A stretch of DNA of 64,000 bases from Phytohabitans maris (lineage in GTDB: Bacteria; Actinomycetota; Actinomycetes; Mycobacteriales; Micromonosporaceae). The stretch spans positions 62,001 to 126,000 of the forward strand of contig NZ_JAVHUY010000005.1 in NCBI RefSeq assembly GCF_031085175.1, written 5' to 3'. The position numbers and the translations under genes were made by a program. This document shows positions 860 through 38,673 of the stretch, one piece after another (the first letter of the stretch is position 1; the number at the start of each line of letters is the position of its first letter). The notes beneath the pieces are model-generated. The model saw only the letters and a list, made by a program, of their open reading frames with translations, was not told the DNA's origin and did not search any database.

Positions 860-1084
860 TTCCGCGGTCGATACATTCGCATGCCCGCCCGCCGCGCGCG
901 GGGCTCCGGCCCAGCTCAGCGCCGTGCCACATCCGCCATGTTGATCAGGCATCCCGTGGCGTGTCGGCCCGCGCCGCGATCGAGAGATTTGCGCTACCGC
1001 GACGCCCGCGGTGGGTCCGAACGAAATGCCGCCCAGCTCAAGTCGATCATGGCTAGCCCGTCCCGCGCGGGGTCGACGTGCGGC

Positions 1085-1132
1085 GATCGTGGTATTCCTG
1101 TGCCCCTCCGAGGGCACCTCGATACCACGATC
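1085..1132. repeat. AGATCGTGGTAY hairpin, copy 1
   Basis: GATCGTGGTAT (1085-1095) and ATACCACGATC (1122-1132) are perfect inverted arms. Inside them a second stem pairs TGCCC with GGGCA. The same two-tier design recurs at 23862-23910. Confidence 0.7.
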
Positions 1133-1198
1133 TCAACGACCGCCCGGTGCTCGCCGGCCAAAGCCGGTGAGAGGAGCTCGACAGTGGACCGTTCCAGC

Positions 1199-1248
1199 AG
1201 ATCGTGGTACGGATCCGCCCGCCCAGGGGCAGCGGCGTACCACGATCT
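1199..1248. repeat. AGATCGTGGTAY hairpin, copy 2
   Basis: AGATCGTGGTAC (1199-1210) and GTACCACGATCT (1237-1248) are perfect 12-bp arms around a 26-nt loop. The next line of sequence also contains a degenerate GTGATCGTGGCCC (about 1265), which may be a decayed half copy. Confidence 0.7.
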
Positions 1249-2197
1249 CGACCGCCGCCGCGGTGTGATCGTGGCCCGGCCCCACCCGGGGCCGGGCGGC
1301 GGCCTGACGCTCCCGAGCGCGCCCGGCTCACAGCCTCGATCGAACTGGCGTGAGTGGCATTTGGGTCCGGACCGTTGCTCCCGCGGCCTCACCCTCCGCC
1401 GTCCACAGTCCACCCGCCGCGGTCGGCGGGGCGCGCGCCGCCAGCGGGTCCGTGCGTCCTTGAAGCTCTCGAGCTGGGCGCACGGTCCGTCGATCAAGGA
1501 CCCGGGACCTTCCCGGTCCGGGCCGACCGCGCCGCATCAAGCCGAGGGCTCCGCCCACGGAGCTGCCGCCTGCCCGGCAGGAGGTCGTTCGCGCGGATCG
1601 CGGACGTCGGCGTAGCCGTGCCGGTGGGTGGGGTCACATCCAGCCGGCACCGGGGCCCGGCGGCCCGGACGGACAGGGCTCGACCCGGGACTCCGCCGAC
1701 GCCGTCCGGCGCGGCCGGCCGGCCCGTCACCCGAAGGGTGGGCGGATCCCATGATCGGCGCTGGGGTTGGTGATCGTGGTCTTTCGGGCATCGCGCGAGC
1801 GCCGGCGCCGGCCCAACGGCGCGGCCTGGGCGTGGGAGCCGCACCCTCCGCGTTCGGCCGCGGTGACCCCTCGCCGCCGCGCGGTCGCCGAGGTGCCCCG
1901 TCCGCGCGTGCAGCTCGAGAGCTCCGTAGGGCTCCGGCGGTGACGGGGCGAGGAACCCGGGCGGAGCTGGCAGCGGAGGCCGGGGAAGTCGGCGAGCGCC
2001 AGCTCGCCGCCGGGCGGAGCGGTGCCCGCGGGAAAGCACCCCAAGAAAACGCTCCGCTGCGCTCCACGTTTCCCCCGGGGGACCCCGCGCATGCGGTCCG
2101 CAGGTGAGGCGGACCGGGGTAAATCTGCTTCTGGGAACGCTCTGAGCTGCTGGTGGGGCGAGGGTTAGAAGGGGAATGGCCGGGTATCTCGCGGGTC

Positions 2198-3835
2198 ATG
2201 CGGGTGCTTGGGGTCAACTCGATCTTTCACGATCCGGCGGCGGCGATCGTCGTGGACGGGCGGGTGGTGGCCGCCGCGGAGGAGGAGCGGTTCAGCCGCC
2301 GGAAGCACGGTAAGCGGCCGGTGCCCTTCAGCGCCTGGGAGCTGCCCGAGCTGGCCGCCGCCTGGTGCCTGGAGCGGGCCGGGCTGGAGGCGGGCGACCT
2401 GGACGCGGTGGCGTACTCGTTCGACCCGGCGCTCTGCCGTGAGGATCTTGACGACAGCGACCCGTGGGACTGGCTGCGCGTCGAGTATGCCCAGCGTGCG
2501 CCGCAGTTTCTGGCCACCGCCCTGCCCGGGCTGGACCCGGGGATGGTCCGGTTCGTGCCGCACCACGTCGCGCACGCCGCCTCGGCCGGGCTCGCCATGC
2601 CGTACCGGGACGACGCCGCGGTGCTCGTGCTGGACGGGCGGGGTGAGTCGGCCAGTCACCTCGCCGGGGTGTACCGGGACGGCTGGATCACCGCGCTGCG
2701 CGCCCAGCGGCTGCCGCACTCGCTCGGGCTGCTCTACGAGGATCTGACCCGCCACCTGGGCTTCCAGCACTCCAGTGACGAGTACAAGGTGATGGCCCTC
2801 GCGTCCTACGGCGAGCCGAAGCACCTGCCGCTGCTGCGCCAGCTGGTCCGGGCGGACGGGGAGGGCGGGTTCACCGTCGAGCCGGTCGCCTGGGGCACCC
2901 TCGCCAAGCCCCGCGCGCCGGGCGGTGAGATGACCGGGGAGCACGCCGACCTGGCCGCCAGCGCGCAGGCGCGGCTGGAGGAGGTGCTGCTCGACCTGGC
3001 CCGCTGGACGTACGAGGCGGCCGGCGGCCCGCGAGTGCTGGCGATGGCCGGCGGCACCGCGCTCAACTGCGTCGCCAACGCCAGGATCGCGGCGGAGGGG
3101 CCGTTCGAGCACGTGTGGGTGCAGCCGGCGGCCGGCGACGCGGGCACCGCCCTCGGCGCGGCGCTGCACGTCGCCCGCGAGGAGGGAGCGCGGCCCGAGC
3201 CGATGCCGGGCGTGGCCCTCGGCCGCGGGTGGAGCGACGCCGACCTCGAAGCCGAGCTGCGCCGCGCCGCGCTCCCCTTCACCCGGGCGGAGTCGATCGC
3301 CGCGGAGGCGGCGCGGGTACTGGCCGGCAACGGCATCGTGGCATGGTTTCAGGGGCGCGCCGAGTACGGCCCGCGGGCGCTCGGCCACCGTTCGCTGCTC
3401 GCCCACCCCGGCGACCGGGACACCACCCGGCGGATGAACGACGTGAAGGGGCGCGAGCAGTTTCGCCCGATCGCGCCGATGGTGCGGGCCGAGCGGGCGG
3501 CCGAGGTCTTCGACGGGGTGCTGCCGAGCCCGTACATGCTGTTCGTCCACACCGTACGGCCACAGTGGCGGGACCGGATCCCGGCGGTGGTGCATGTGGA
3601 CGGTACCGCGCGGGTGCAGACAGTGGACGGTGCCCAGGAGCCGCTGGTGGCCGAGATGCTGGCCGAGTTCGACCGGCTGACCGGGCTGCCCGTCGTCGTC
3701 AACACCTCGCTCAACACCGCCGGGCTGCCCATAGTGGACACCCCGCGCGAGGCGATGGAGCTCTTCGGCTCGGCACCGGTAGACCTGCTCGCGATCGGGC
3801 CGTACGCGGTGCGCCGGGCCGAGGCGTTCCGTTGA
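2198..3835 (+). CDS. Carbamoyltransferase, NodU/CmcH family
   Basis: This 545-residue enzyme is expected to transfer a carbamoyl group from carbamoyl phosphate (through carbamoyl-adenylate) to a hydroxyl of a sugar or natural product. The start chosen is ATG 2198, where the family N-terminus MRVLGVNSIFHDPAAAIV begins; an in-frame GTG at 2153 adds only a non-conserved extension. Visible motifs are AAAEEERFSRRKHG, the metal-binding HHVAHAASAG (about residue 125), AMAGGTALNCVAN (about 283) and the C-terminal AEYGPRALGHRSLLAHP (about 388). It is the first gene of the sugar operon and its TGA overlaps the next start. A likely substrate is a heptose or other sugar of the glycan built by its neighbours, by analogy with the carbamoylated heptose of the Pseudomonas aeruginosa LPS core; this is inference. 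Confidence 0.88.
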   Translation: MRVLGVNSIFHDPAAAIVVDGRVVAAAEEERFSRRKHGKRPVPFSAWELPELAAAWCLERAGLEAGDLDAVAYSFDPALCREDLDDSDPWDWLRVEYAQRAPQFLATALPGLDPGMVRFVPHHVAHAASAGLAMPYRDDAAVLVLDGRGESASHLAGVYRDGWITALRAQRLPHSLGLLYEDLTRHLGFQHSSDEYKVMALASYGEPKHLPLLRQLVRADGEGGFTVEPVAWGTLAKPRAPGGEMTGEHADLAASAQARLEEVLLDLARWTYEAAGGPRVLAMAGGTALNCVANARIAAEGPFEHVWVQPAAGDAGTALGAALHVAREEGARPEPMPGVALGRGWSDADLEAELRRAALPFTRAESIAAEAARVLAGNGIVAWFQGRAEYGPRALGHRSLLAHPGDRDTTRRMNDVKGREQFRPIAPMVRAERAAEVFDGVLPSPYMLFVHTVRPQWRDRIPAVVHVDGTARVQTVDGAQEPLVAEMLAEFDRLTGLPVVVNTSLNTAGLPIVDTPREAMELFGSAPVDLLAIGPYAVRRAEAFR

Positions 3836-4788
3836 TTTCGATCGTCGTGCCGACCGTGGGGCGGCCCAGCCTCGCCGTGCTCCTCGACCGCCTGGCTCCG
3901 TCCACAGCGGAGGGTGCGGAGATCCTGGTGGTGGACGACCGCCCCGGCCGGTCGAGCTCTCCGGGGCTCCCGGTGCGGGACGGCGCGTACCCGAAAATGC
4001 TGGCGGGACGCGGCCGCGGGCCGGCGGCGGCGCGCAACACGGGCTGGCGGGCCGCCCGGTTCCCGTGGGTCGCGTTTCTGGACGACGACGTGGTGCCGGA
4101 CCCGGACTGGTTCGCGCGGCTCCGCGCGGACCTGGACGTGCCCGCGCGGGTCGGCGGCGTGCAGGGGCGGATCCGTGTGCCGCTGCCGCGCGACCGGCCG
4201 CCCACCGACTGGGAGCGCGCCACTGCGGGCCTCGAGGAGGCCCGCTGGATAACCGCGGACATGGCCTACCGGCGGACCGCGCTGGCCGGCGTGGGCGGCT
4301 TCGACGAACGCTTTCCGCGCGCGTACCGGGAAGACGCCGAGCTGGCCTACCGGGTGCGGTGCGCGGGCTGGGAGCTCGTGCGCGGCGCGCGGCGGGTGAC
4401 CCACCCGGTGCGGCCGGAAGGGCCGTGGGTGAGCCTGCGGGCCCAGCGCGGCAACGCGGACGACGCGCTGTTGCGGCGCTTGTACGGGCCGCGGTGGCGG
4501 GCGCGCGTGGAGGGGTTGCCCGGGCGGCGTCCGCGTCACGCGGTCATCACCGCGGCGCTCGTCGTGGCCGCCACCGTGCCGCGCCTGCGGATGGTGGCGG
4601 GGGCGGCCTGGTTGGCGGGTACGGCGGAGTTCGCGGCCGCCCGCATCAAGCCCGGCCCGAAGGCACCCCGCGAGATCGCCGCCGCGCTCCTGACGAGCGT
4701 GCTCATCCCTCCACTGGCGACCGTGCACTGGCTGCGCGGCTGGTGGCGCTGGCGTGGCGCGCGCCCGCTCGGGGGCGGGTCCAGTTGA
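3832..4788 (+). CDS. Glycosyltransferase family 2
   Basis: This 318-residue inverting glycosyltransferase starts at TTG 3832, overlapping the carbamoyltransferase stop in TTGA, and its first residues already belong to the fold (ISIVVPTVGRPSLAVL). The nucleotide-sugar site shows ILVVDDRPG (about residue 30) and the DXD-type FLDDDVVPDPDW (about 82). The acceptor side shows YREDAELAYRV (about 165), the usual ED motif. A hydrophobic C-terminal stretch (about residues 240-300, with HAVITAALVVAATV and LLTSVLIPPLATV) suggests membrane association. The product ends at TGA 4786-4788, which shares an A with the next ATG. It probably adds one sugar to an envelope glycan; donor and acceptor are not visible from sequence. 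Confidence 0.85.
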   Translation: MISIVVPTVGRPSLAVLLDRLAPSTAEGAEILVVDDRPGRSSSPGLPVRDGAYPKMLAGRGRGPAAARNTGWRAARFPWVAFLDDDVVPDPDWFARLRADLDVPARVGGVQGRIRVPLPRDRPPTDWERATAGLEEARWITADMAYRRTALAGVGGFDERFPRAYREDAELAYRVRCAGWELVRGARRVTHPVRPEGPWVSLRAQRGNADDALLRRLYGPRWRARVEGLPGRRPRHAVITAALVVAATVPRLRMVAGAAWLAGTAEFAAARIKPGPKAPREIAAALLTSVLIPPLATVHWLRGWWRWRGARPLGGGSS

Positions 4789-6380
4789 TGTTTACTTCTT
4801 CTGACCTCGGGAACCAGCGTCATGTGCGAAGCCATCTGTTCGATGCGGTGCTTTTCGACCGCGACGGCACGCTCGTGCACGATGTGCCGTACAACGGGGA
4901 TCCAGCCCTCGTGCGCGCGGTAGCGGGCGCACGGGCCGCGCTGGACCGGCTTCGCGCGGCCGGGTTCCGGCTCGGTGTAGTGACCAATCAGTCAGGAATC
5001 GCCCGCGGGCGGCTGGCGCCCGAGGACGTGGCGAAGGTCAACGCCCGGGTGGAGGAGCTGCTTGGGCCGTTCGACACCTGGCAGGTGTGCTCGCACGGAG
5101 AGCGCGACGGGTGCCGGTGTCGCAAGCCACAGCCTGGCATGATCGTCGATGCCGCCGCGGCGCTGGGGACCACACCCCAGCGCTGCGTGGTCGTTGGCGA
5201 CATCGGCCGCGACATGGCGGCGGCCGGAGCGGCGGGCGCCGCCGGCATCCTGGTGCCCACCGAGGTCACCCGACCCGAGGAGGTTGCCGCCGCGCCCACC
5301 GTGGCCGGCGACCTGGATGCCGCGGTACGCCAGATCCTGCGCCGCTCCCGACTCGTACCCGCGGGCACCACCCGGCCCCGCCGCGGCACCGTGCTCGTGG
5401 CCCGCCCCGACTCCGCCGGCGACGTGCTGGTCACCGGCCCGGCGATCCGGGCCGTCTCGGCCGGCGCCGAGCGGGTCGTCATGCTCTGCGGGCCGCGCGG
5501 CCGGCGCGCCGCCGAGCTGCTGCCCGGCGTCGACGAGCTGATCGAGTGGCGGCTGCCGTGGATCGACCCCAGCCCGGAGCCGCTGGCCCGGTCCGAAGTG
5601 GACGCCATGGTGGACCGCCTCGCGGCGGCGGCGCCGGAGGAGGCTGTGCTGTTCACCTCGTTCCACCAGTCGGCGCTCCCGCTCGCACTGGTGCTGCGGA
5701 TGGCCGGCGTGCGCCGGATCGCCGCGATCAGCGACGACTACCCGGGCTCCCTTCTGGACGTACGGCACCGCGTGCCGCTCGGCATCCCCGAGCCGGAGCG
5801 GGCGCTCTCGCTGGCCGCCGCGGCCGGCTTTCCACTCCCGCCCGACGACGTGCCGGAGCTGCGGCTGCGCGACGTCGAGGGCGGACCGGACCTGGCTCCC
5901 GGGTACGTCGTGGTGCACCCCGGCGCCTCCGTGCCGGCCCGGGCCTGCCCGCCCGAGCGGTACGCCGAGATCGTCGCCGCGCTCACCGGCGCCGGACACC
6001 GCGTGGTGGTCACCGGCGGACCGGAGGAGCTGCCGCTCAGCGCCCGGGTCGCCGGCGCCTCCGCGCTCGACCTCGGCGGGCAGACCTCGCTCAGCGCGCT
6101 GGCCGCGGTCATCGCCCGGGCCGCCTGCCTCGTGGTCGCCAACACCGGCCCCGCACACCTGGCCGCCGCGGTCGGTACGCCGGTGGTGAGCCTCTTCGCG
6201 CCGACCGTCCCGTTCGGACAGTGGGGGCCGTACCGGGTGCCGTGGGTGCGCATCGGCGACGCGACCGCCCCGTGCCGCAACACCCGGGCGGCTGTCTGCC
6301 CGGTCGCCGGCCATCCCTGCCTGTCCACGGTGGACCCGCTCGCGGTGGTGGAGGCGGTCCGCCGGGTCGGTGCGCCGTGA
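4788..6380 (+). CDS. HAD-IIIA (GmhB-like) phosphatase fused to GT9 heptosyltransferase
   Basis: One 530-residue frame joins two enzymes. Residues about 18-175 are a HAD-IIIA phosphatase: catalytic FDRDGTL (Asp24, Asp26), TNQSG, the GmhB zinc loop (VCSHGERDGCRCRKP, with a CxH and a CxC pair) and VVGDIGRDM. This is the profile of D-glycero-D-manno-heptose-1,7-bisphosphate phosphatase. Residues about 205-530 are a GT9 glycosyltransferase of the ADP-heptose:LPS heptosyltransferase type, with VVVHPGASVPARACPPERY, LGGQTSLSALAAVI and VVANTGPAHLAAAVG. The ATG at 4788 overlaps the previous TGA and the end overlaps the next GTG. There is no stop or frameshift between the parts and composition is uniform, so the fusion is real in this assembly. 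It couples one step of ADP-heptose synthesis to its use. Confidence 0.87.
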   Translation: MFTSSDLGNQRHVRSHLFDAVLFDRDGTLVHDVPYNGDPALVRAVAGARAALDRLRAAGFRLGVVTNQSGIARGRLAPEDVAKVNARVEELLGPFDTWQVCSHGERDGCRCRKPQPGMIVDAAAALGTTPQRCVVVGDIGRDMAAAGAAGAAGILVPTEVTRPEEVAAAPTVAGDLDAAVRQILRRSRLVPAGTTRPRRGTVLVARPDSAGDVLVTGPAIRAVSAGAERVVMLCGPRGRRAAELLPGVDELIEWRLPWIDPSPEPLARSEVDAMVDRLAAAAPEEAVLFTSFHQSALPLALVLRMAGVRRIAAISDDYPGSLLDVRHRVPLGIPEPERALSLAAAAGFPLPPDDVPELRLRDVEGGPDLAPGYVVVHPGASVPARACPPERYAEIVAALTGAGHRVVVTGGPEELPLSARVAGASALDLGGQTSLSALAAVIARAACLVVANTGPAHLAAAVGTPVVSLFAPTVPFGQWGPYRVPWVRIGDATAPCRNTRAAVCPVAGHPCLSTVDPLAVVEAVRRVGAP

Positions 6381-7321: not shown

Positions 7322-7332
7322 GGAGGTTCGCC

Positions 7333-13065: not shown

Positions 13066-13081
13066 CGGGTGCGAGCTCTTG

Positions 13082-13135
13082 GTGATCAAAGCTCCCCTCA
13101 AGTCGTTCTAACGACGTGAAGGGAGCTTCGATCAC
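13082..13135. terminator. Repeat-family hairpin between topoisomerase and lacI (copy T1)
   Basis: GTGATCAAAGCTCCC (13082-13096) faces GGGAGCTTCGATCAC (13121-13135). The inner GTCGTT-CT-AACGAC extends the stem almost to the tip, making a hairpin of about 26 pairs. It lies between two convergent genes and so can stop transcription from both sides. The TGA stop of lacI (13134-13132) lies inside the right arm. Closely similar copies are at 33719 and 49761. Confidence 0.75.
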
Positions 13136-14163
13136 GGGTGTGGAGTGGCCGGCGGGCCGGTGGAGTCGCGGACGACCAGCCGGCACGGCTGGCGGATGAC
13201 GCCGGAGGCGGGCTGCCCGTCCAGCGCGGCGAACAGGTGGTGCACGGCCGTCTCACCCAGCTGCTGCAGGTTGAGGTCTACTGTGGTCAGTGGCGGCTGG
13301 CAGTCGGAGGCGAACTCGTGCCAGTTGTCGTACCCCACGATGGAGATGTCGTCGGGGACGTGGCGGCCCATCTCGCGAACGGTGTTGGCCACGCCGGTGG
13401 CGATCTGGTCGTTGCCGCAGAAGACCGCGTCGATGCCGGGGTGCGCGGTGAGGAGCGTGCGGGCGGCGTGGCGGCCCCAGCGCTGCGACCACTCGCCGAA
13501 GAGCGGGTCGCCGCCGGCCACCGGAAGGCCCGCGTCGGTCAGCACCTTGCGAAACGTGGCGGCGCGGTCGCGGGCGGCGCGGTAGGTCTCCGGGCCGGTG
13601 ATGTGCGCGATCTGCCGGCGCCCCAGCGACACCAGGTGCTCGGTGGCGAGGCGGGCGCCGTGCTCGTCGTCAGCGAGCACGGACAGGTCGCGCGGGTCGT
13701 CGGACTCGCCGTACACGTACACGACCGGGACCGGGATCTGGCGGGTCAGCGAGGGGCGCAGGTCGTTGGAGTCGCCGAGCACCACGAAGCCGTCGACCTG
13801 GCGGGCGAGCAGCGTGCGGATGTAGTGCTGGCGCCGGATCGCGTCACCACGCGCGTCGCAGAGCAGCACGGACATCTGGCCGCTCGCGAGGGCATCCTCG
13901 ACGCCGAGCAGGATCGGGATGGAGAACCGCCCGGCCAGCTCGTCGGTCAGCAGCCCGATGGTGCGGGTGCGGCCGGTCAGCAGGCCCCGAGCGAGTACGT
14001 TGGGCTGGAACGCGAGGTCGTCGGCCGCCTGGAGCACCCGCCGGCGGGTCTCCGGGGCGACCTCGTCGCGCGCGTTGAGCGCCTTGGACGCGGTGGCGAC
14101 GGACACGCCGGCGCGGCGAGCCACGTCGGTCAGCGTGACCGGTCTGGAACGCTGCCTGGCCAC
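13132..14163 (-). CDS. LacI-family transcriptional regulator
   Basis: This 343-residue repressor has an N-terminal LacI helix-turn-helix (TLTDVARRAGVSVATASKAL, residues about 9-28) with the hinge helix ending in FQPNVLARGL, then a periplasmic-binding-protein-like sensor domain (TIGLLTDELAGRFS, VDGFVVLGDS, DAVFCGNDQIATGVANTV, ISIVGYDNWHEFAS). It should respond to a sugar or oligosaccharide. The GTG at 14163 has AAAGGA upstream, and a CGAAA-N3-TTTCG palindrome overlaps this leader, suggesting autoregulation. The divergent promoter it faces has no recognisable gene (see findings). Its stop codon is embedded in the T1 hairpin. Confidence 0.92.
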   Translation of the reverse strand: MARQRSRPVTLTDVARRAGVSVATASKALNARDEVAPETRRRVLQAADDLAFQPNVLARGLLTGRTRTIGLLTDELAGRFSIPILLGVEDALASGQMSVLLCDARGDAIRRQHYIRTLLARQVDGFVVLGDSNDLRPSLTRQIPVPVVYVYGESDDPRDLSVLADDEHGARLATEHLVSLGRRQIAHITGPETYRAARDRAATFRKVLTDAGLPVAGGDPLFGEWSQRWGRHAARTLLTAHPGIDAVFCGNDQIATGVANTVREMGRHVPDDISIVGYDNWHEFASDCQPPLTTVDLNLQQLGETAVHHLFAALDGQPASGVIRQPCRLVVRDSTGPPATPHP

Positions 14164-14176
14164 CGAAATCCTTTCG
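14164..14176. promoter_or_regulatory. Possible LacI-family operator at the lacI leader
   Basis: CGAAA-TCC-TTTCG is a small palindrome directly before the lacI start and overlapping its ribosome site. A longer relative of it lies at 14243-14258. Occupation would give autorepression. Confidence 0.4.
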
Positions 14177-14211
14177 CGAGGCGTTTCGTCGGAGGGTACA
14201 CCAAGACACCC

Positions 14212-14570: not shown

Positions 14571-14658
14571 CCGCGGAGCGTTTCCCCGGGGCCCCGCGCA
14601 GCGGTCTGGACCACGACGGACGTCGCGGTAGCTCCATCTTTGTCCTGAATGGATCGTC
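14571..14658 (-). repeat. Right end of intergenic element R2
   Basis: Read on the minus strand this contains GACGATCCATTC, then GGAGCTACCGCGACGTCC, GTGGTCCAGACCGCTGCGCG and the GGGGAAACGCTCCGC module, in the same order as at 24085-24000 and from 26970 onwards. No matching left end was found to the left, so this copy looks truncated. It covers most of the space between the orphan terminator and the DUF4180 gene. Confidence 0.6.
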
Positions 14659-23488: not shown

Positions 23489-23758
23489 GCCACCGCATCT
23501 CGCCCCGTTGATCTAGGGCGTATCCGCGTGAGTCGATCTCCAACTGCACGGGCACACCCTAGAGGATCCATTTCAAGGGATGGGCTACCGTTCCCGCGGC
23601 CTCACCCTCCGCGCTTGATGACCCCCGCCGGCCGGTCCCGCGCGGCAGCGGCCGGCGCGCGCGGTCGCAGAGGCCGGGCGGCCTCGAAGGGGAGCGACTG
23701 CTGCCAACGGGGTGAATGGGCAATGTCCGGGACATCGCCCGTTGCGAGCCGCTCCCAG

Positions 23759-23821
23759 TGATCGTTCGCCCAAAACCCGCGTCTTTCCCGGCGCGTCACG
23801 CGGAGAACGGGCGAACGATCA
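23759..23821. repeat. Inverted repeat inside R3
   Basis: TGATCGTTCGCCC (23759-23771) and GGGCGAACGATCA (23809-23821) are perfect 13-bp arms around a 37-nt loop. Confidence 0.6.
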
Positions 23822-23861
23822 TAGGCGCCCCTGCCGCGGCCCGAACCCGGCTTCGGCTGGT

Positions 23862-23910
23862 GATCGTGGTATTTCAGTGCCCCGCTGGGGGCACCTGGAT
23901 ACCACGATCT
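23862..23910. repeat. AGATCGTGGTAY hairpin, copy 3
   Basis: GATCGTGGTAT (23862-23872) and ATACCACGATCT (23899-23910) enclose TTCAG, a TGCCCC/GGGGCA stem and CCTGG. It is nearly the same as the copy at 1085. Confidence 0.7.
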
Positions 23911-24420
23911 GATTCCGCGTCCCGATGTCGAACCCGGACCGCTGCGGATCGGGGCGGGAGTGCCGACCGTGGAGGGTGAGGCCGCGGAAACGCGCCCAAG
24001 AAAACGCTCCACGTTCCCGGGGCCCCGCGCAACGGTCCGGACCGCGACGGACATCGCGGTAGCCCAAGTCTTGGAATAGATCCTCTTGATCAACGAGGCG
24101 AGAAGGGCCCTCCGCGGCGCGGGGTGGCTACGGACGGTTACTGTCCGTGCATCGCGGTGTCGCGAGGTGTCGGGCGGTGGCGAATGCCGGGAGAGGGAAC
24201 GCTGGATCGACGGGCGTGGGTTTCGTGCGGTCTGGACGGTCGGGATGTTGAGCTTTTGACGACTCGCTGGAGTCGCCTCTGACCAGGGATGACTCGGGTT
24301 CGCTCGGCTCGGCGAGGCGGTGACGCGACGTCCGAGGTGAACCGCAGCGGCGAGGCACTCGTGTGTACTGTCGTGGCCGCGGTCGACCCGACCGCGGGCC
24401 GAGGACAGGAAGGGTGAGGC

Positions 24421-24972: not shown

Positions 24973-26973
24973 GTGGCAGACCCCTCTACCTATCGTCCGG
25001 CGCCCGGCACCATCCCGGACGCGCCAGGGGTCTATCGCTTTCGTGACGCGAGCGGGCGGGTCATCTACGTCGGCAAGGCCAAGAGCCTGCGCAGCCGGCT
25101 GAATTCGTACTTCGGCGACCTGTGGCACCTGCACCAGCGCACCCAGCAGATGGTCACCACCGCGTCCTCTGTCGACTGGGTCACGGTGGGCAGCGAGGTC
25201 GAGGCGCTCCAGCTGGAGTATTCCTGGATCAAGGAGTACGACCCGCGCTTCAACGTGAAGTACCGCGACGACAAGTCGTACCCGTACCTTGCCGTGACGC
25301 TCGACGAGGAGTACCCGAGGCTCCAGGTCATGCGGGGGGCCAAGCGCAAGGGCGTGCGCTACTTCGGGCCGTACTCGCATGCCTGGGCGATCCGCGAGAC
25401 GCTCGACCTTCTGCTGCGCGTCTTCCCGGCGCGCACCTGTTCTTCCGGGGTTTTCAAGCGGGCCGGCCAGATCGGCCGGCCCTGCCTGCTCGGCGACATC
25501 GGCAAGTGCTCGGCGCCCTGCGTCGGGCGGGTCAGTGCGGTGGAGCACCGGGCGATCGTCGAGGAGTTCTGCGACTTCATGGCGGGCCGCACCGAGACGA
25601 TGGTCAAGCGGCTGGAGCGGGAGATGATGGCCGCCTCGGAGCGGCTGGAGTTCGAGCTCGCCGCCCGCCTGCGCGACGACGTCGTGGCGCTGCGGCGGGC
25701 GCTGGAAAAGCAGGCCGTGGTCTTCGGCGACGGGACGGACGCGGACGTGGTGGCGTTCGCCGAAGATCCGCTCGAGGCCGCGGTCCAGGTCTTCCACGTG
25801 CGCGGCGGGCGGGTGCGCGGCCAGCGCGGCTGGGTGGTGGAAAAGGTCGAAGACCTGACCACCGGCGACCTGGTGCATCACTTCTGCAGCCAGGTGTACG
25901 GCGGGGAGCAGGGCGAGAGCGACGTCCCCCGCGAGCTGCTCGTGCCCGCGCTGCCGCCGGACGCCGACGCGCTCGCCGACTGGCTGAGCCAGCACCGGGG
26001 GAGCCGGGTGCAGTTGCGGGTGCCGCAGCGCGGCGACAAGAAGGCGCTGCTGGAGACCGTCGCGCGCAACGCCGCCGAGGCGCTCACCCGCCACAAGCTG
26101 CGCCGCTCGGGCGACCTCACCACCCGCAGCAAGGCGCTTGAGGAGATCGCCGAGGCACTGGGGATGGCCACCGCGCCGCTGCGGATCGAGTGCTACGACG
26201 TCTCGCAGATCCAGGGCACCGACGTGGTGGCGAGCATGGTGGTCTTCGAGGACGGGCTGCCCCGCAAGAGCGAATACCGGCGGTTCGCGGTGCGCGGTGC
26301 CACCGACGACCTCTCCGCCTTGTCGGAGGTGCTGCGGCGCAGGTTCGCCCGATACCTGGAGGCCCGCGCGTCGATGGGCGAGCTCGACGCCGAGGAGGCC
26401 GAAGACCCGGAGCGGCCGGGCATCGACCCGACGACCGGGCGGCCGCGCAAGTTCGCGTACCCGCCGCAGCTCGTCGTCGTCGACGGCGGCCAGCCCCAGG
26501 TCAACGCCGCGGCCACGGTCCTGGCCGACCTGGGCATCGACGACGTGGCACTCTGCGGCCTGGCCAAGCGGCTGGAGGAGGTGTGGCTGCCGTCCGCCTC
26601 CGATGGCTCAGGCGACTTTCCTGTGATCCTTCCGCGCGCCTCGGAGGGGCTGTATATGTTGCAGCGCCTGCGCGACGAGGCCCACCGGTTCGCGATCACG
26701 TTCCACCGCGAGCGCCGGTCAAAGCGGATGACGGTGTCCAGTTTGGACTCGATCCCCGGACTCGGCGAGGTGCGGCGCAAGGCGCTGCTGCGCCACTTCG
26801 GCTCGCTCAAGCGGCTGAGCGCGGCGAGCGCCGACGAGATCACCGAAGTGCCGGGCATCGGCCGCCGCACCGCCGAGGCGATCGTCGAAGCGCTGGCCGA
26901 CCCGCCGGCCGCCGCTGGCCCCTCCCCGGAGGCGGAGCGGAGCGCCGCCTCCGGGGAGTCGATTCCTAAATAG
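24973..26973 (+). CDS. uvrC: Excinuclease ABC subunit C
   Basis: UvrC (666 residues) makes both incisions in nucleotide excision repair. The N-terminal GIY-YIG nuclease shows [20 protein letters not shown] (residues about 17-36). The UvrB-binding helix pair is [20 protein letters not shown] (about 214), the RNase H-like nuclease begins around [20 protein letters not shown] and [15 protein letters not shown], and the C-terminal (HhH)2 DNA-binding domain has [18 protein letters not shown] and [16 protein letters not shown]. The GTG at 24973 matches the family start ([20 protein letters not shown]). The last few codons (ESIPK, then TAG) lie in the left end of element R4, so the natural C-terminus was probably altered by insertion of the repeat. 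Confidence 0.96.
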
Positions 26974-27471
26974 AGATTCGAGCTACCGCGATGGCCGTCG
27001 TGGTCCGGACCGTTGCGCGGGGTCCCCGGGGAAACGTGGAGCGCAGCGGAGCGTTTTCTTGGGGTGCGTTCCCGCGGCCCCACCCTCCGCGCGTGGTCGC
27101 GGTCACCCCTTCGCGCGGCCCGCGACGCCAGAGGTCTCACCGCGGAGCTATCGAGCTGCCCCGTCTGTGCGTGCGGCGCGATAGCCTCCCGCGCGCATCC
27201 GTCACAGCCGGGTCGGTCCCGCGCGCCACCTCGACACCCCGGGACTTCGGTGGGGGTTTGTCCCCGACAATGCCCACTCACCCAGCGGACGGCAGGCTGG
27301 CTCCGCGATCACCGACACCGTCCGGGCCCCAGGGCCGCGGGCCCGGACGCTTACGGCGCAGCGTAAGTCGCGCGACCGTGACCAGACGCGAACGGTGAGG
27401 CCGCGGGAGCGACGGTCCAGACCACCGCGGGCGTCGCGGTAGCTCGGAATTCTGTCTTTTCGAGGATCCTC
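26956..27471. repeat. Intergenic element R4 with inverted ends
   Basis: The left end GAGTCGATTCC (26956) leads into GAGCTACCGCGATGGCCGTC and GTGGTCCGGACCGTTGCGCG. The right end, read on the minus strand, gives GAGGATCCTC (27471), then CCGAGCTACCGCGACGCCCG and GTGGTCTGGACCGTCGCTCC. These are inverted terminal copies about 515 bp apart. Internal modules include GGAGCGCAGCGGAGCG, CACCCTCCGCGCGTGGTCGC, AGCTATCGAGCTGCCCCGTC and GGGCATTGTCGGGGACA (minus strand), all with counterparts in R1, R3 or R5. It fills nearly all of the uvrC-rapZ space and contains no convincing gene. Confidence 0.7.
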
Positions 27472-27564
27472 CTGTCCGAGGTGGAGGCGGGCGTGCGGCG
27501 GAGGGTGACCAACCGGTGGGGTGGAGGCGGCCGTGCCGGCGGGGCGTTCGGTGCGCGGAGCGCC

Positions 27565-27570
27565 TAGGAT
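27565..27570 (+). promoter_or_regulatory. -10 element for leaderless rapZ transcript
   Basis: TAGGAT ends six bases before the GTG at 27577 and no ribosome site is visible, the same geometry as at uvrC. This also supports the chosen GTG start. Confidence 0.4.
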
Positions 27571-27576
27571 TCTCTG

Positions 27577-29468: not shown

Positions 29469-29511
29469 TCACAACTGAAGCACCCGCAACTGTCCAGGAG
29501 ATGACGACGAG

Positions 29512-30492: not shown

Positions 30493-30577
30493 TCACGAGA
30501 GCCGCGAACCGGGTAACCATCCGCTGGGCGTAACGGCGCTGGGCGGGGAGGCGTCCGCAGGCAGGCTGACCAGGTCA

Positions 30578-31729
<1,152 letters not shown>

Positions 31730-31730
<1 letters not shown>

Positions 31731-32917: not shown

Positions 32918-33711
32918 TGGCAGCGAAGGCGTCGCGCCGGCCGCTGATGGCCGGCAACTGGAAGATGAACCTCAACCACCTCGAGGCCAACCTGCTCGTG
33001 CAGAAGCTGGCCGCGAGCCTCAACGAGCAGCAGCTCACCGACGTCGAGGCGGTGGTGCTGCCGCCGTTCACCGACATCCGTACGGTGCAGACGCTGGTCG
33101 ACGGCGACAAGCTCCTGCTCGGGTACGGCGCGCAGGACCTCTCGCCGCACCCGAAGGGCGCCTACACCGGCGACATCTCCGGGCCGATGCTGGCCAAGCT
33201 CGGCTGCCAGTACGTGGTGGTGGGGCACTCGGAGCGCCGGGAGTACCACCAGGAGGACGACGCGCTGGTCAACACGAAGGTCAAGGCCGCGCTGGCCAAC
33301 GACCTCGCGCCGATCATGTGCATCGGTGAGGGGCTGGAGATCCGCGAGGCCGGCGAGCACGTGGCGTACGTGATCGCCCAGCTCGACGCCGGCCTCGACA
33401 AGCTCACCCCGGCCCAGGTGGAGAAGGTCGTGGTGGCGTACGAGCCGGTGTGGGCGATCGGCACCGGCAAGACCGCCACGCCCGAGGACGCCCAGGAGGT
33501 GTGCGGAGCCATCCGCGCGCGGATCGGCGAGAAGTTCGGGGCGTCGACGGCCGAGGTCGTGCGCGTGCTGTACGGCGGCTCGGTCAAGGCGGCCAACGTC
33601 GCCAGCATCATGGCCCAGCCCGACGTCGACGGCGCCCTGGTTGGCGGGGCGAGCATCGACGCCGAGGAGTTCGTGCAGATCTGCCGCTTTCCGGAGCACA
33701 TCCAGCGCTGA
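32917..33711 (+). CDS. tpiA: Triosephosphate isomerase
   Basis: TpiA (264 residues) interconverts dihydroxyacetone phosphate and glyceraldehyde 3-phosphate. It shows [16 protein letters not shown] (Lys of the active site in NWKMN), [16 protein letters not shown] (catalytic His), [16 protein letters not shown] (catalytic Glu, flexible loop IGTGKTA) and [12 protein letters not shown] for phosphate binding. It starts at ATG 32917 inside the pgk stop. It ends the operon and is followed 8 nt later by the T2 hairpin. Confidence 0.96.
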
Positions 33712-33718
33712 CGCTTCT

Positions 33719-33772
33719 GTGATCAAAGCTCCCTTCAAGTCGTTCTAACAACTTGGCGGGAGCTTTGATCAT
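33719..33772. terminator. Repeat-family hairpin between tpiA and the SARP gene (copy T2)
   Basis: GTGATCAAAGCTCCC (33719-33733) and GGGAGCTTTGATCAT (33758-33772) form the outer stem and the inner AGTCGTT-CT-AACAACT extends it. It lies between convergent genes. The TGA stop of the regulator (33771-33769) is inside the right arm, as in the T1 copy. Confidence 0.75.
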
Positions 33773-36700
33773 GCGGGAGGAGGCAGGCCCGCCAGCTTGC
33801 CGCGGACCTCGTCCGCCTCGGGCTGGTCGAGCTCCTCCAGCAGCACCAGGGCCTGCCGCCACGCGCGGCGGGCCCTTTCGCGATCACCGGCCGCGTGGTG
33901 GGCGTCGCCGAGGCGGGTGAGCGTACCGGCCTCGTGCGACCGGTCGCCGGCCACCCGAAACATCTCCAGCGCCCGCCCGAAGCTCGCCACCGCCTCGCGC
34001 TGGTTGCCCAGATGGTGGTGGGCGTACCCGATGCTGTCCAGCGTCGCCGCCACGCCCGGCCGGTGGTCGATCTCGCGCAGCAGCGCCAGCGCCTGCTCGC
34101 AGTGCTCCAGCGCCTCCCGGTACTCGCCGTTCTGCGCGTGGTACCAGCCGACGTTGTTGAGCGCGTTCGCCTCGCCGACCCGGTGGCCGCCGGCCCGGTA
34201 CAGGTCGAGCGCCTTGCTCGCGTGGTAGAGCGCGTCCCGCTGGTGCCCCTGCGAGCCGCACATGAAGGCGAGGTTGCGGTGGGTGTTGGCCTCGCCGAGC
34301 CAGTCGCCGATCTCGCCGAAGACGTCGAGCGCCCGCCAGTAGTTCACGTGCGCGTCCACGAAGCGCCCCACCCGCGCGTACGCCCGGGCCAGCCCGCGGT
34401 GCGCGTCGGCCTCGTCCGGGCGGTGGCCCAGGCGGCGGGCGGCGGTGAGCGCCAGGTCCTGCACCCCGGCCCAGTCGTGCCAGTGCCCCTGCCGGTCGAG
34501 GTACGTGGTGAGCGCCCAGGCCAGCTGCCACGTGTGCGAGTCGCAGCCGGCGGTGGCGGTGTGCTCGACGACCGCGAGCAGCGTGGCGTGCTCGGCCGCG
34601 AACCAGGCCAGCGCCTGCCGCTGGTCACCCACCCCGTCGACCGTCACGCCCGGCTGGGCCGGTGTGCGGGTGATCTGGTCACGGTGCGGGTTGAGCCGCT
34701 CGTCCGCCGCGTACGCGGTGTGCAGGTAGTGGTCGAGCAGCCGGTGCAGCGCCGCCTGCCGCTCCTGGGGCGGGTTGGCCCGCGCGGCGAGCTCGGCCGC
34801 GTACGCGCGGAGCAGGTCGTGGAACGCGTACCGCTCGGGCGCCTGCTCGGCCAGCAGCCGGGCCCGGGCCAGCTCGGCCAGCAGCGGCCGCACCTGCGCG
34901 GGCGGTACGCCGGCGAGGCTGGCCGCGGCGGCCGTCGCCAGGTCGGGGCCGGGGTGGAGGCCGAGCAGCCGGAAGAGGCGCGCGGCCGGCTCGCTCAGCG
35001 ACCGGTACGACCAGGAGAAGACAGCGCGCACGTCGGTGGCCGGGTCGGCGCCGGAGAACGCGTCGAGCCCGCCGCGCGCCTGCCCCAGCTCGGCGGCGAG
35101 CGCGGCGAGGGAGAGGCCGGGCCGGGTCGCGGCCCGCGCGGCGACGATCACCAGGGCGAGGGGGAGGCCGGCGCAGGCCCGCACGAGCTCGGCCAGCGCC
35201 TCCGGCTCGGCCGCCACCCGGTCCGCACCCAGGCGGCGGGCGAGCAGGCGCACGGCCTCGTCGGGGTCCAGCAGATCCAGGGGTACCGGGTGCGCGCCCT
35301 CGGCCGCCACCAGGCCGGCGAGCTGGTCGCGGCTGGTCACGATCACCAGGCACCCGGGGGAGCCGGGCAGCAGCGGGCGTACCTGGTCGGCGTCGCGGGC
35401 GTTGTCGAGCACCACCAGCATCCGCCGCCCGGCCAGGAGGCTGCGGTAGAGCGCGGCCTGGGCGTCCAGCCCCACGGGCATCCGCTGCGCCGGGACGTGG
35501 AGGGCGTCGAGGAAGCCGCGTACCGCCTCGTCGGGCGGGACCGGCCCGGCCGGGTCGAAGCCGCGCAGGTTGACGTAGAGCTGCCCGTCGGGGAAGCGGT
35601 CGGCGACCCGGTGGGCCCAGTGCACGGCGAGCGCGGTCTTGCCCACGCCGGCGGTGCCGTCGATCGCCGAGATCACGACCGCCGTACCGGGGCCGGTGCG
35701 GGCGCTGGGCAGCAGCGCGTCGAGCCGTTCCAGCTGGGTGGCCCGCCCGGTGAAGCCCGGCACCGCGGCCGGGAGCTGGCGCGGTCGCGGGTCCGCGCGC
35801 CGGACGACCTGCTCCTGCCGCAGGATGCGCAGGTGGGTGTCGCGCAGCTCGGCGGAGGGCTCGACCCCGAGCTCGTCGGCGAGGCGGCGGCTCACCTCGG
35901 CGAAGAGCGAGAGCGCGGCGGCCCGCTCGCCGGAGCCGGAGAGCGCGACCATCAGCTTGGCGGCCACCCCCTCGTGCAGCGGCTCGTCCGGCGCGAGCTC
36001 CTGCAGCCGGGCCACGGCGGCCTCGTGGAGCCCCAGGTCGGCGGCGAGGTCCGCGTACGCCAGGGCGGCGCGCACCCGCCGCCGGGCCGCCGCGACCGCC
36101 GCCGGGTGGGAGCGGAGCCGGGGGCTCGCACCGGCCAGCACCGGGCCGCGCCAGCAGCGCAGCGCCCGGTCGAGCAGGTCGACCGCGGCGGCGGGATCGG
36201 GCTCGGCGGTGCCCCGCTCGACCAGCTCCTGGAACTGCGCCAGGTCGAGCTCGTCGGTGTCGAGGTCGATCGCGTACCCGTCGCCGGCCAGCCGGATGAC
36301 CTTGCCGGGGGAGCGCGGCTCGCGGTCCGGGTCGAGGCGCCCGCGCAGCCGCCCCACGTACGTCTGCACCATGCTCAGGCAGGTCTTCGGCGGCTGGTCG
36401 CCCCAGAGCACGTCGACGATCTCGTCGCGGCTGACCACTCGGCCGGGCTGGAGCGCGAGCAGGGCGAGCAGGTCGCGCTGGGGCGCCGGGCCGAGGTCGA
36501 CCGCCGCCGGGCCGGTCCGCACCGAGAGCGGCCCCAGCACCTCCACCCGCAGCGGGCGGCCGGCGTCGGGCTCCGGGCGGGGGCCGGGCAGCGCGGCGAG
36601 CAGCCGGTCACGGTCGAACGCGGCCAACCCGAGCGCCTCGGCGAGCCGGCGCAGCGAGGGGGCACGGGGCGCGTCGACCCGCTCGTGCTCGATGTCCCGG

Positions 36701-36816
36701 ATCGTGCGTACGCTGACGGCGGCGCCGGCCGCCAGCTCCTGCTGGGAGAGGCCGGCCGCCAGGCGGTATCGGCGCAGCAACGAGCCCACCGTCGCCTCGG
36801 CGTTCTGGGGCGCCAT
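33769..36816 (-). CDS. XRE-SARP-NB-ARC-TPR regulator (AfsR-like)
   Basis: The start at ATG 36816 gives 1015 residues; an upstream in-frame ATG at 36939 would add 41 residues of no known domain. An XRE helix-turn-helix comes first (LLRRYRLAAGLSQQELAAGA, about residue 13), then the OmpR-type winged helix of SARPs (about 90-165; VEVLGPLSVRTGPAAVDLG, VSRDEIVDVLWGD), the BTAD domain to about 330, an NB-ARC ATPase with Walker A DGTAGVGKTALAVHW (about 387) and ITSRDQL-like VIVTSRDQLAGL, and C-terminal TPRs (about 790-1000; HRNLAFMCGSQGHQRDALYH, ALNNVGWYHAQNGEYREAL). Such proteins activate secondary metabolism or development in response to unknown signals. XRE plus SARP is a less common combination than SARP alone. 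No biosynthetic cluster is visible nearby. Confidence 0.88.
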   Translation of the reverse strand: MAPQNAEATVGSLLRRYRLAAGLSQQELAAGAAVSVRTIRDIEHERVDAPRAPSLRRLAEALGLAAFDRDRLLAALPGPRPEPDAGRPLRVEVLGPLSVRTGPAAVDLGPAPQRDLLALLALQPGRVVSRDEIVDVLWGDQPPKTCLSMVQTYVGRLRGRLDPDREPRSPGKVIRLAGDGYAIDLDTDELDLAQFQELVERGTAEPDPAAAVDLLDRALRCWRGPVLAGASPRLRSHPAAVAAARRRVRAALAYADLAADLGLHEAAVARLQELAPDEPLHEGVAAKLMVALSGSGERAAALSLFAEVSRRLADELGVEPSAELRDTHLRILRQEQVVRRADPRPRQLPAAVPGFTGRATQLERLDALLPSARTGPGTAVVISAIDGTAGVGKTALAVHWAHRVADRFPDGQLYVNLRGFDPAGPVPPDEAVRGFLDALHVPAQRMPVGLDAQAALYRSLLAGRRMLVVLDNARDADQVRPLLPGSPGCLVIVTSRDQLAGLVAAEGAHPVPLDLLDPDEAVRLLARRLGADRVAAEPEALAELVRACAGLPLALVIVAARAATRPGLSLAALAAELGQARGGLDAFSGADPATDVRAVFSWSYRSLSEPAARLFRLLGLHPGPDLATAAAASLAGVPPAQVRPLLAELARARLLAEQAPERYAFHDLLRAYAAELAARANPPQERQAALHRLLDHYLHTAYAADERLNPHRDQITRTPAQPGVTVDGVGDQRQALAWFAAEHATLLAVVEHTATAGCDSHTWQLAWALTTYLDRQGHWHDWAGVQDLALTAARRLGHRPDEADAHRGLARAYARVGRFVDAHVNYWRALDVFGEIGDWLGEANTHRNLAFMCGSQGHQRDALYHASKALDLYRAGGHRVGEANALNNVGWYHAQNGEYREALEHCEQALALLREIDHRPGVAATLDSIGYAHHHLGNQREAVASFGRALEMFRVAGDRSHEAGTLTRLGDAHHAAGDRERARRAWRQALVLLEELDQPEADEVRGKLAGLPPPA

Positions 36817-37084
36817 ATCCGACTTGTTCCTCGCAAGCGTCCGGGCCGGTACCCGGGTCATCCTGCCGCTTTCTGCCGGCTGAGCAAACCCGCTTTCCGG
36901 CAGGAGCGCGTTTTCCCTGGTCAACGCCGGTGCGGCCACCGGTCCGGCCGGTTACCGCGCGTTGTGTCAGCGGCGGGCGGTGGTCCATATCGTCAGGCTG
37001 GCCGGTCGGGCCGGTTCGCACCGGATATGGGGGCGGTACGGGCCGGCCCGCCCGGATGCGCTTCCGCTATCCTTGGTGGGCTCC

Positions 37085-37112
37085 TTGGTGTCCATCGTCG
37101 ATGGGCTATCTT
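37085..37112 (+). promoter_or_regulatory. Candidate secG promoter in the 332-bp divergent region
   Basis: TTGGTG (37085-37090) and TATCTT (37107-37112) are 16 bp apart, 37 bp before secG. The rest of the intergenic space 36817-37148 holds a direct repeat CCGCTTTC (36866 and 36890, 24 bp apart) near the regulator start, possibly its own operator, and nothing else recognisable. Confidence 0.35.
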
Positions 37113-37148
37113 CGATGGGCTTCTGTGTCGAGAGGACTGAGCGCCACC

Positions 37149-37403
37149 ATGCCGATCGCGTTCGCATACACGTTGATCGTGTTGCTGGTCATCACCAGCT
37201 TCCTGCTGATGCTGCTGATCCTGCTGCACCGGGGCAAGGGCGGCGGGCTGTCGAGCATGTTCGGTGGCGGTGTGAGCACCAGCCTCGCCGGTTCGTCCGT
37301 CGCCGAGAAAAACCTCGACCGTTACACCATCCTGGTGGGAATCGTCTGGTTTGCCTGCATTGTCGGCCTGGGCCTTTGGCTCAAACTCGCGATGAACTCT
37401 TAG
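37149..37403 (+). CDS. secG: Preprotein translocase subunit SecG
   Basis: SecG (84 residues) is the small non-essential subunit of the SecYEG channel. It has two membrane helices (residues about 4-26, FAYTLIVLLVITSFLLML; and 58-80, YTILVGIVWFACIVGLGLW) joined by the conserved Gly-rich loop LLHRGKGGGLSSMFGGG. The start is ATG 37149, with AGAGGACTGAG upstream. The neighbourhood gap-pgk-tpiA-secG is the usual one in actinobacteria, here separated by an inserted convergent regulator gene. rbpA follows. Confidence 0.95.
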   Translation: MPIAFAYTLIVLLVITSFLLMLLILLHRGKGGGLSSMFGGGVSTSLAGSSVAEKNLDRYTILVGIVWFACIVGLGLWLKLAMNS

Positions 37404-37552
37404 GGCCCTCCGCACCGTACGTAGTCATAGACTCTGCGCGGTCTGATTTATCCGTGGTTCCCCTATGACGCGTTTCGGCCCTCTGCGGCACTTAGGGCCG
37501 GAGCGTCGATCGCGAACGTCGAACCCTCACTCGACGACAGGAGCGAAGAGCC

Positions 37553-37897
37553 GTGCCACATGGCAGCGCCATCCGCGGCACTCGCGTCGGATCGGGCCCT
37601 GTCCGGCCCACCGAGCGGTGTGACCCCGCCCCCCGCCGGCCCGTGACGTACTGGTGCGCCAAGGGCCACTCGATCGAGGTCCTGCTGGCGGCCGAGGCCG
37701 CGCCGCCGGCCCACTGGGACTGCCCCCGCTGCGGCCAGCCCGCGGGCCTCGACCAGCTCAACCCGCCCGGCCCGTCCCGCGCCGAGCCCTACAAGTCCCA
37801 CCTGGCGTACGTGAAGGAGCGCCGCTCCGACGCCGACGGTGAGGCACTGCTCGCCGAGGCGCTGGCCGCCCTCCGGCGCCGCCGCGGCGAGGCCTGA
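37553..37897 (+). CDS. rbpA: RNA polymerase-binding protein RbpA
   Basis: RbpA (114 residues) binds RNA polymerase and the principal sigma factor and stabilises open complexes in actinobacteria. The N-terminal tail HGSAIRGTRVGSGP is followed by a zinc-ribbon-like core (YWCAKGHSIEVL and WDCPRCGQPAG, with Cys, His, Cys, Cys) and the basic sigma-interaction region PGPSRAEPYKSHLAYVKERR. The GTG at 37553 has CAGGAGCGAAG upstream. A GGCCCT/AGGGCC stem (37477-37499) lies between secG and rbpA and may be a terminator. Confidence 0.95.
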   Translation: MPHGSAIRGTRVGSGPVRPTERCDPAPRRPVTYWCAKGHSIEVLLAAEAAPPAHWDCPRCGQPAGLDQLNPPGPSRAEPYKSHLAYVKERRSDADGEALLAEALAALRRRRGEA

Positions 37898-38187
37898 CCC
37901 ACCCCGCTCCGCAACGCCCGTACGGTCCGTGGCGCTCGGACGTCTGATCCTCCGAGGTCTGAGCTACCGCGATGTCCGCCGTGGTCCGGACCGCTGCTCC
38001 CGCAGCCTCACCCTCCGTGGTTTCACAACCCCACCTTGGCCCCCGGGGCCGGTTTGGCCCCTTTAGTTCGATGATCCAAGGGACACCGGGTGAGTAGATC
38101 TCCAACCACCTGGGTGTCCACCGGCCGATTTCGGCCCGGAACGGGCCGCCAGCCAAAGCAGTGGTCGAGTCGCTCCGCGACGCCTTG

Positions 38188-38217
38188 GATCGTGGTATTT
38201 CAGCGCCTCCGGGGGCA
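38188..38217 (+). repeat. Half copy of the AGATCGTGGTAY hairpin
   Basis: GATCGTGGTATTTCAG followed by GCGCCTCCGGGGGCA matches the left half and inner stem of the copy at 23862, but the right arm ATACCACGATCT is missing. It is probably a truncated copy. Confidence 0.55.
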
Positions 38218-38256
38218 CAAGGCCGGACGGCCGCTGGGCGGTTGGAGAGCGGCGGC

Positions 38257-38306
38257 AGATCGTGGTACGAAACCGCCGTTGGAAGGGCGGTTTCGTACCA
38301 CGATCT
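38257..38306. repeat. AGATCGTGGTAY hairpin with 21-bp perfect arms
   Basis: The arms 38257-38277 (AGATCGTGGTACGAAACCGC and one more base) and 38286-38306 are perfectly complementary over 21 bp around an 8-nt loop. It is the longest copy of the family in the window. Confidence 0.75.
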
Positions 38307-38673
38307 GCTGAAGAAGCGTGCTCGCGGGCGGTGGGCTCTGGCCCTGGACGTCACGGTTATCGGACAAATCGTCAGAAGGCGCCCATCTGGGTCCATGCCT
38401 TGCGCCGACGCACATGCGCATAGACGGGGCAGCTCGACAGCTCCGCGAATTTGTCGACCGACCACGACGCGGGCCGAGCGCGCTCAGCACCGTCGCTGCC
38501 CTGATTGTCCGGAGCGCTCCCGCCGGAGGCGAAGTGGGGTAACCGCGACCAAACGCGGAGGGTGAGGCCGCGGGAGCGACGGTCTGGACCACGGCGGACG
38601 TCGCGGTAGCCCAATGTGTTGGGAATAGATCCGCGGACCGCGCCCGGGCATGCGGGGCGGGCTGAAGGCCGCG

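Follow-up and report, generated by a model that had tools for sequence, protein, structure and literature searches.

A CTAG-bordered miniature inverted-repeat family of Phytohabitans with the ends of an IS982-type insertion sequence

Introduction

The insertion sequences (IS) of the IS982 family are about 1 kb long, mostly begin with AC at their ends and have direct repeats of 2–10 bp when these are present, according to the section of PMC7335449 on the family. MITECca01 of Cardinium, a miniature inverted-repeat transposable element (MITE), has no transposase, is about 240 bp long and is derived from ISCca4 of this family, as the passages of PMC9769881 on the element put it. Here we analyse a 64-kb stretch of the Phytohabitans maris genome (the window), in which five non-coding intergenic regions, R1–R5, contain related inverted modules. 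R1–R5 are very probably copies of a Phytohabitans miniature inverted-repeat family that an IS982-type transposase would move at CTAG; most of them have decayed and taken in other repeats.

The autonomous partner of this family is like the IS982 family in its length of about 1 kb, its single transposase of about 300 amino acids (aa) and its AC-beginning ends. It differs in a border that is nearly always CTAG in Phytohabitans and also in relatives of other genera, and its ends fit AC(N)6T(N)5TT, the family consensus, except at the TT (compared with the family section of PMC7335449). The miniature element is like MITECca01 in having the ends of an IS982 parent and no transposase, but differs in its CTAG target and its long palindromic arms, which are absent from the IS (compared with the MITECca01 passages of PMC9769881).

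Two other systems are close in one respect each. MITEPsy1 of Pseudomonas syringae is also a miniature element duplicating CTAG on insertion, or else YTAA, but it is 100 bp long, has 6 copies and ends like those of ISPsy2 (listed as 'IS5?'), and the passages of PMC3189936 consulted draw no link to stop codons. The repetitive extragenic palindromic (REP) sequences and bacterial interspersed mosaic elements (BIME), with their REP-associated tyrosine transposases (RAYT), likewise occur in hundreds of intergenic palindromic copies in the portion of PMC2817692 consulted. Unlike them, the Phytohabitans elements come without a Y1 transposase match in six genomes, have ends in common with a DDE-type IS and are bordered by CTAG.

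Results

The true ends were revealed by end-to-end alignment of P. suffuscus copies whose arms lie 262–266 bp apart. They read ACGATCTATTCCAAGG, are bordered by CTAG and lie further out than the 18-base motif that a preliminary description of the window had taken for the element tip. The aligned copies form a uniform class of eight (L233–L239 and L074), which are 372–385 bp long with two arms each and are 87.0–95.6% identical (mean 89.8%, 28 pairs). Their order is CTAG-end-arm-core-arm-end-CTAG with nearly constant spacing. CTAG borders both sides in seven of the eight and CCAG/CTAG in one, in a sample found with a search pattern that itself contained CTAG. An intact copy begins with CTAG and ACGATCTATTCCAAGG; a spacer leads to the first palindromic arm (GAGCTACCGCGACGTCCGCGGTGGTCCGGACC...), the core and the second arm, and another spacer precedes CCTTGGAATAGATCGT and the closing CTAG.

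Six Phytohabitans genomes were used: P. maris (G000, a 9.87-Mb draft that holds the window), P. suffuscus (G003), P. flavus (G004) and three other congeners (G001, G002 and G005). The end pattern CTAGACGATCTRTTCCAAGG at up to three mismatches has 33, 1, 11, 56, 16 and 4 matches in G000–G005, against 0, 1, 0, 0, 0 and 1 for the reversed pattern. The latter also matched once in G014 and twice in G034, so the single match in G001 and the four in G005 are near background. Terminal-repeat matches at 12 or more of 15 positions lie near 33 of 263 arms, while 0.2 are expected from flanks shuffled with only base composition preserved.

Genes were called by a purpose-written codon-usage script, not by a standard gene-prediction program. 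By these calls, all 47 arm pairs up to 1,547 bp apart enclose no gene, and eight of the nine wider pairs hold one (56 pairs in total, with at least one locus counted twice). The family shows four features of a MITE, namely no internal transposase gene, terminal repeats in common with an autonomous element, target-site duplication and many similar full-length copies; a fifth, movement in trans by the partner's transposase, is presumed. A second miniature subfamily is seen in P. maris (L229, L230 and L231), in which one end has an arm and the other has a different subterminal stretch.

The autonomous element with matching terminal repeats, which the preliminary description had proposed to look for, is an IS982-family IS. 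Four pairs of ACGATCTATTCCAAGG-type ends, 1,029–1,032 bp apart including the CTAGs (about 1,021–1,024 bp between them), enclose an open frame of 304–314 aa. These copies are L221 and L222 in G002, L223 in P. flavus and L224 in P. suffuscus, and CTAG borders both sides of all four. A fifth, L225 in P. maris, has an intact frame with borders CGAG and CGGG. The L222–L225 proteins match DDE_Tnp_1, and all four score 150.9–167.5 bits with the NCBIfam IS982 model NF033520 (cut-off 130). D126, D213 and E257 are invariant in six transposase proteins and probably make up the catalytic triad; a comparison with solved structures gave no relative at E 0.1. The length falls within the 845–1282 bp of the family and the ends of L221–L224 begin ACGATC. 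As to the end consensus, the AC and the T fit but the final TT reads GG.

Within Phytohabitans, the four arm-rich genomes, G000, G002, G003 and G004, hold IS copies with 85% identity or more, and the two arm-poor ones, G001 and G005, have no IS match at 1e-30. A transposase match at the same threshold is present in 22 of 121 Micromonosporaceae genomes, which were a sample of a larger group. The CTAG border is also seen when loci are fetched by protein instead of motif. The ends were readable in 17 of 30 such loci, and CTAG is on both sides in 15, eleven of them from seven genomes of other genera (L245, L246, L249, L250, L251, L254, L259, L264, L265, L268 and L270). The two exceptions are L242, the same P. 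maris copy as L225, and L252 with CTGG and CTAG; the other 13 loci show no convincing ends, several being fragments or at contig ends. Another IS982 relative, of 54% identity, has six copies on the P. maris contigs C59, C64, C66, C70, C74 and C88, at least four of them within 60 bases of a contig end, and may break the assembly.

Target duplication was examined by searching the joined flanks of eight elements in the six Phytohabitans genomes, with 40 candidates scored per genome out of 325–824. Four of the eight (L234, L222, L231 and L237) aligned with relatives and L221 with its own copy only. At L234, a member of the uniform class, P. suffuscus reads AAACT-CTAG-element-CTAG-AGACC and P. maris (contig C17) reads AAGCT-CTAG-AGACT with a single CTAG, a comparison that rests on the unique left flank because the right one consists of repeat sequence. 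In P. suffuscus the left-hand CTAG serves as a stop codon, and P. flavus has TTAG at this site. At L222, an IS copy at a stop codon, TTCCG-CTAG-IS-CTAG-GCCCG compares with TTCCG-GTAG in four relatives, the right flanks agreeing for a few bases only. A four-base duplication is supported by L234 and consistent with L222. A further P. suffuscus copy with a worn right end has the left junction GGACTAG|CGATCCATTCC, where the arm-free P. flavus reads GGACTAG and P. maris GGACTAT. One-side CTAG is a stop codon in 6 of 14 complete elements, all found by the CTAG-containing pattern.

A second CTAG-bounded repeat, CTAG AGACCTTYCGGGGTCRGGGT..., lies at the right flank of L234 and recurs in P. suffuscus with dozens of matches, each about 115 bp long (query 532–646).

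The arms are numerous and virtually restricted to Phytohabitans. A 30-base inner arm stretch at up to three mismatches has 227 matches in P. maris (132 forward and 95 reverse) and none when reversed, which bears out the further genomic copies anticipated earlier. Across 61 genomes, the counts in G000–G005 are 227, 7, 376, 403, 462 and 36, and only one of the 55 non-Phytohabitans genomes has a match, a single one. Ten relatives bearing an IS982 relative, two of them already among the 61, include one with arm-motif matches (2). Overall, matches occur in 2 of the 63 genomes from other genera, with at most two each.

In the window, a profile made from 179 arm sequences, including those of the window, finds seven arms. 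The recognisable features are as follows.

981–1014, plus strand: degenerate arm of R1 (profile, 29.0 bits)
1362–1400, plus strand: second partial module block of R1 (module motif matches)
2026–2088, minus strand: further module copy, in the gap that also holds R1, absent from the preliminary description (90% complementary to 27015–27077)
14603–14642, minus strand: single arm of R2 (profile)
14643–14657, minus strand: terminal-repeat remnant of R2, ACGATCCATTCAGGA, adjoining CTCG (11 of 15 positions, weak alone)
23559–24088, no strand assigned: R3, the best-kept copy in the window, 530 bp, with terminal repeats at both ends and borders CTAG on the left and CTTG on the right
23563–23577, plus strand: left terminal repeat of R3, AGGATCCATTTCAAG (sequence match)
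23859–23910, no strand assigned: hairpin repeat GATCGTGGTA...TACCACGATC inside R3 (self-comparison of repeats in the window)
24034–24075, minus strand: right arm of R3 (profile match)
24070–24084, minus strand: right terminal repeat of R3, AGGATCTATTCCAAG on the minus strand (14 of 15 positions)
26968–27011, plus strand: left arm of R4, the profile match overlapping the uvrC stop codon, which ends at 26973 (profile)
27414–27457, minus strand: right arm of R4, before rapZ (profile)
37953–37992, plus strand: left arm of R5 (profile)
38581–38618, minus strand: right arm of R5 (profile)
38619–38633, minus strand: right terminal-repeat remnant of R5, CGGATCTATTCCCAA (11 of 15 positions, weak alone)

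The sharing of modules among R1–R5, as described before, is real. The 18-base motif has eight window matches at up to three mismatches with 0.55 expected, and CTCACCCTCCGCG occurs 27 times with 9.3 expected; none of 100 shuffles reaches either count. Two further modules are weak alone, GAGGATCYATTC with 9 against 3.0 expected (one of 100 shuffles reaches 9) and GTGGTCCRGACC with 38 against 26.8 (three reach 38). The inverted ends attributed to R3–R5 hold for R4 and R5, which have two inward-facing arms each, those of R5 being 63 nt long and 87% complementary, but not for R3, where only the right arm is whole and the left lacks the hairpin part (GGGCTACCG/TTCCCGCGGCC). R2 has a single arm, and in R1 a weak, degenerate arm is followed by a partial second block that points the same way. 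Terminal repeats are kept at both ends in R3 and at one end each in R2 and R5. R1–R5 are mostly decayed or mosaic, not intact. The gaps holding them contain no called gene, in line with the claim that they encode no protein, and the window has no Rfam match at the gathering score that would place them in a known structured RNA family.

The hairpin repeat GATCGTGGTA...TACCACGATC lies within or beside elements at 1082–1133, 1197–1248, 23859–23910 and 38255–38306. It has 5 copies in 226 kb of P. maris and 13 in 250 kb of P. suffuscus, and none in the G002 and P. flavus regions.

Between species, arms are often present at one locus and absent from its ortholog. Among 36 loci with arms, a comparison with one or more of the other arm-rich genomes was possible for 24, and 21 of these have an arm-free ortholog while three do not. 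One gap is 884 nt long in P. flavus and 60, 9 and 8 nt in three other genomes; another is 554 nt in G002, 26 nt in G000 and a 19-nt overlap in G003 and G004. The R3 locus has arms in P. maris and none in G002–G005 (G001 is not comparable), and at the R4 locus all four arm-rich genomes have arms while G001 and G005 lack them. A conserved local function, which the same sequences at the same loci in relatives would have indicated, is thus not what most loci suggest. Common IS982 ends, CTAG borders, this presence and absence and an empty site together support the earlier view of a miniature element mobilised in trans, the IS982 transposase being its likely mover.

Element interiors differ strongly between species at orthologous loci, which speaks against the module order having been fixed. 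This divergence also favours an alternative in which the regions are mosaics made by nested insertion and arm recombination, where the IS982 ends represent one insert among several and the arms travelled as passengers. Outside the uniform class the interiors share pieces of about 30–270 bp, and the second CTAG-bounded repeat next to L234 fits such nesting as well. The end-arm-core-arm-end layout of the uniform class with its nearly constant spacing does not, nor does the absence of one whole uniform-class unit from its empty site, and we regard the mosaic origin as rather unlikely.

As to their position, the arms concentrate at gene 3′ ends. At 101 P. flavus and P. suffuscus loci, which are exact motif matches among the matches listed and biased towards well-kept arms, 128 arms have genes on both sides; 107 turn their outer side towards a gene 3′ end and 86 lie in convergent gaps. 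The P. maris arms behave similarly (52 of 60 and 42 of 60). Synteny-chosen regions of 226–258 kb from each of four genomes are motif-independent and so free of that bias, and there arms occupy 26 of 138 convergent, 18 of 565 tandem and 1 of 139 divergent gaps (19 of 704 non-convergent gaps together). The copies therefore sit just after gene ends as stated before, but the proposed break-up of operons is not borne out, since most lie between convergent genes.

The same positions would be expected if the arms were functional bidirectional terminators or mRNA 3′ ends, selected between convergent genes with mobility incidental, and the palindromic arms would suit that role. However, an arm-free ortholog exists at 21 of the 24 comparable loci. 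Moreover, in tandem gaps of the motif-chosen loci the outer side is turned towards a 3′ end 21 times and towards a 5′ start 17 times (10 and 7 in P. maris), which is unexpected for a gene-end signal, although these loci were drawn by motif match. This mixed orientation disfavours the arms as strictly 3′-end signals, and their being kept by selection as terminators seems quite improbable.

A separate, near-perfect hairpin repeat, GTGATCAAAGCTCCC...GGGAGCTTCGATCAC, stands at gene 3′ ends at 13082–13136, 33719–33771 and 49760–49814. It has 8 copies in 226 kb of P. maris and is absent from the 250–258 kb compared in each of three congeners.

An origin as REP/BIME-type repeats, spread by a RAYT (Y1) transposase, is a very remote prospect and was rejected: the palindromic arm with GTAG, a hallmark of REP, beside a short hairpin, the many copies and the gene-end positions are reminiscent of them, but the curated Y1 family PF01797 has a match in none of the six Phytohabitans genomes and in 5 of 14 control genomes, and the CTAG borders and ends common with a DDE-type IS also speak against it.

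For the IS982-type miniature family, the gene-end positions can be related to the target. CTAG occurs 51–105 times per 226–258 kb in four genomes against 572–679 predicted from base composition, a 6–11-fold depletion, and 20–30% of these CTAGs are stop codons (10 of 51, 23 of 77, 19 of 77 and 22 of 105). This scarcity and stop-codon share help explain where the arms lie. CTAG forms the stop just ahead of the arm in 44 of 130 cases, compared with 79 of 614 in a background to which the arm-side genes of these loci also contribute; the 130 were retained from 188 arms as those with a gene 3′ end 0–130 nt away on the outer side.

Discussion

Several observations weigh against the IS982-type reading. 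The IS has no arm and has only its ends in common with the miniature copies. An end with 11 or more of the 15 positions is present at only 48 of the 263 arms (4.6 expected), so the majority of copies either have worn ends or had another origin. In the window, R1 and R4 gave no recognisable ends in the terminal-repeat search, and R5 as a full-length multi-copy unit was dropped because, among the 40 of 422 candidates scored, no full-length copy but only arm-sized or hairpin-sized pieces match elsewhere. The CTAG share of the miniature copies was selected for by the search pattern. Among the four flank comparisons, CTAG itself is in the empty site only at L234, whose right flank is a repeat; the L222 site has GTAG, L231 (borders CTAG and CTAA) has TCAG in two of three relatives, and the two relatives of L237 align poorly. 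For L235, L239 and L229, no row spans the joined flanks among the scored candidates.

Mechanistically, the IS982 transposase would bind the common ends, insert the miniature element at CTAG and duplicate those four bases. When the landing site is a stop codon, the duplication of CTAG would restore the stop. As CTAG is rare and often a stop codon, insertion just behind genes would be tolerated. Copies in promoters and operons would be lost, leaving most of the remaining ones between convergent genes. Thus, CTAG and stop-codon targeting with a presumed loss of such harmful copies accounts for the convergent-gap bias.

More tentatively, and perhaps on the doubtful side, a CTAG-specific IS982 branch of the Micromonosporaceae may have made the TAG stop a safe landing site and so let the palindromic-arm element reach hundreds of copies at Phytohabitans gene ends, where the arms may now separate convergent transcripts.

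An IS982-derived miniature element as such is of a known kind, as in Cardinium, a genus of another bacterial phylum than Phytohabitans. The combination of IS982-type miniature elements, a nearly fixed CTAG target and a tie to stop codons appears new within the literature searched. No report of this family was found there, under repeats of Micromonosporaceae or Phytohabitans, MITEs, IS982 target sites and stop-codon insertion (ISfinder lies outside this coverage).

Target choice and stop restoration, followed by the loss of harmful copies, offer a possible reason for the hundreds of non-coding repeats behind Phytohabitans genes. With a 1-kb IS and a 380-bp passenger whose copies are fairly uniform, the family offers a concrete pair in which IS982 target choice and trans-mobilisation are directly testable. 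It also provides a worked case of intergenic regions being remade between related species.

A strand polarity of the arms along the replichores was considered and dropped. An exact arm sub-motif is 29 forward and 34 reverse in P. flavus and 21 and 24 in P. suffuscus; one-strand runs are visible in P. flavus but do not switch at dnaA (7.50 Mb). Besides dnaA, P. suffuscus and P. flavus have 5 and 6 equal-scoring copies, respectively, of DnaA-domain proteins with frames of 325–497 aa, which by our guess are possibly mobile-element ATPases.

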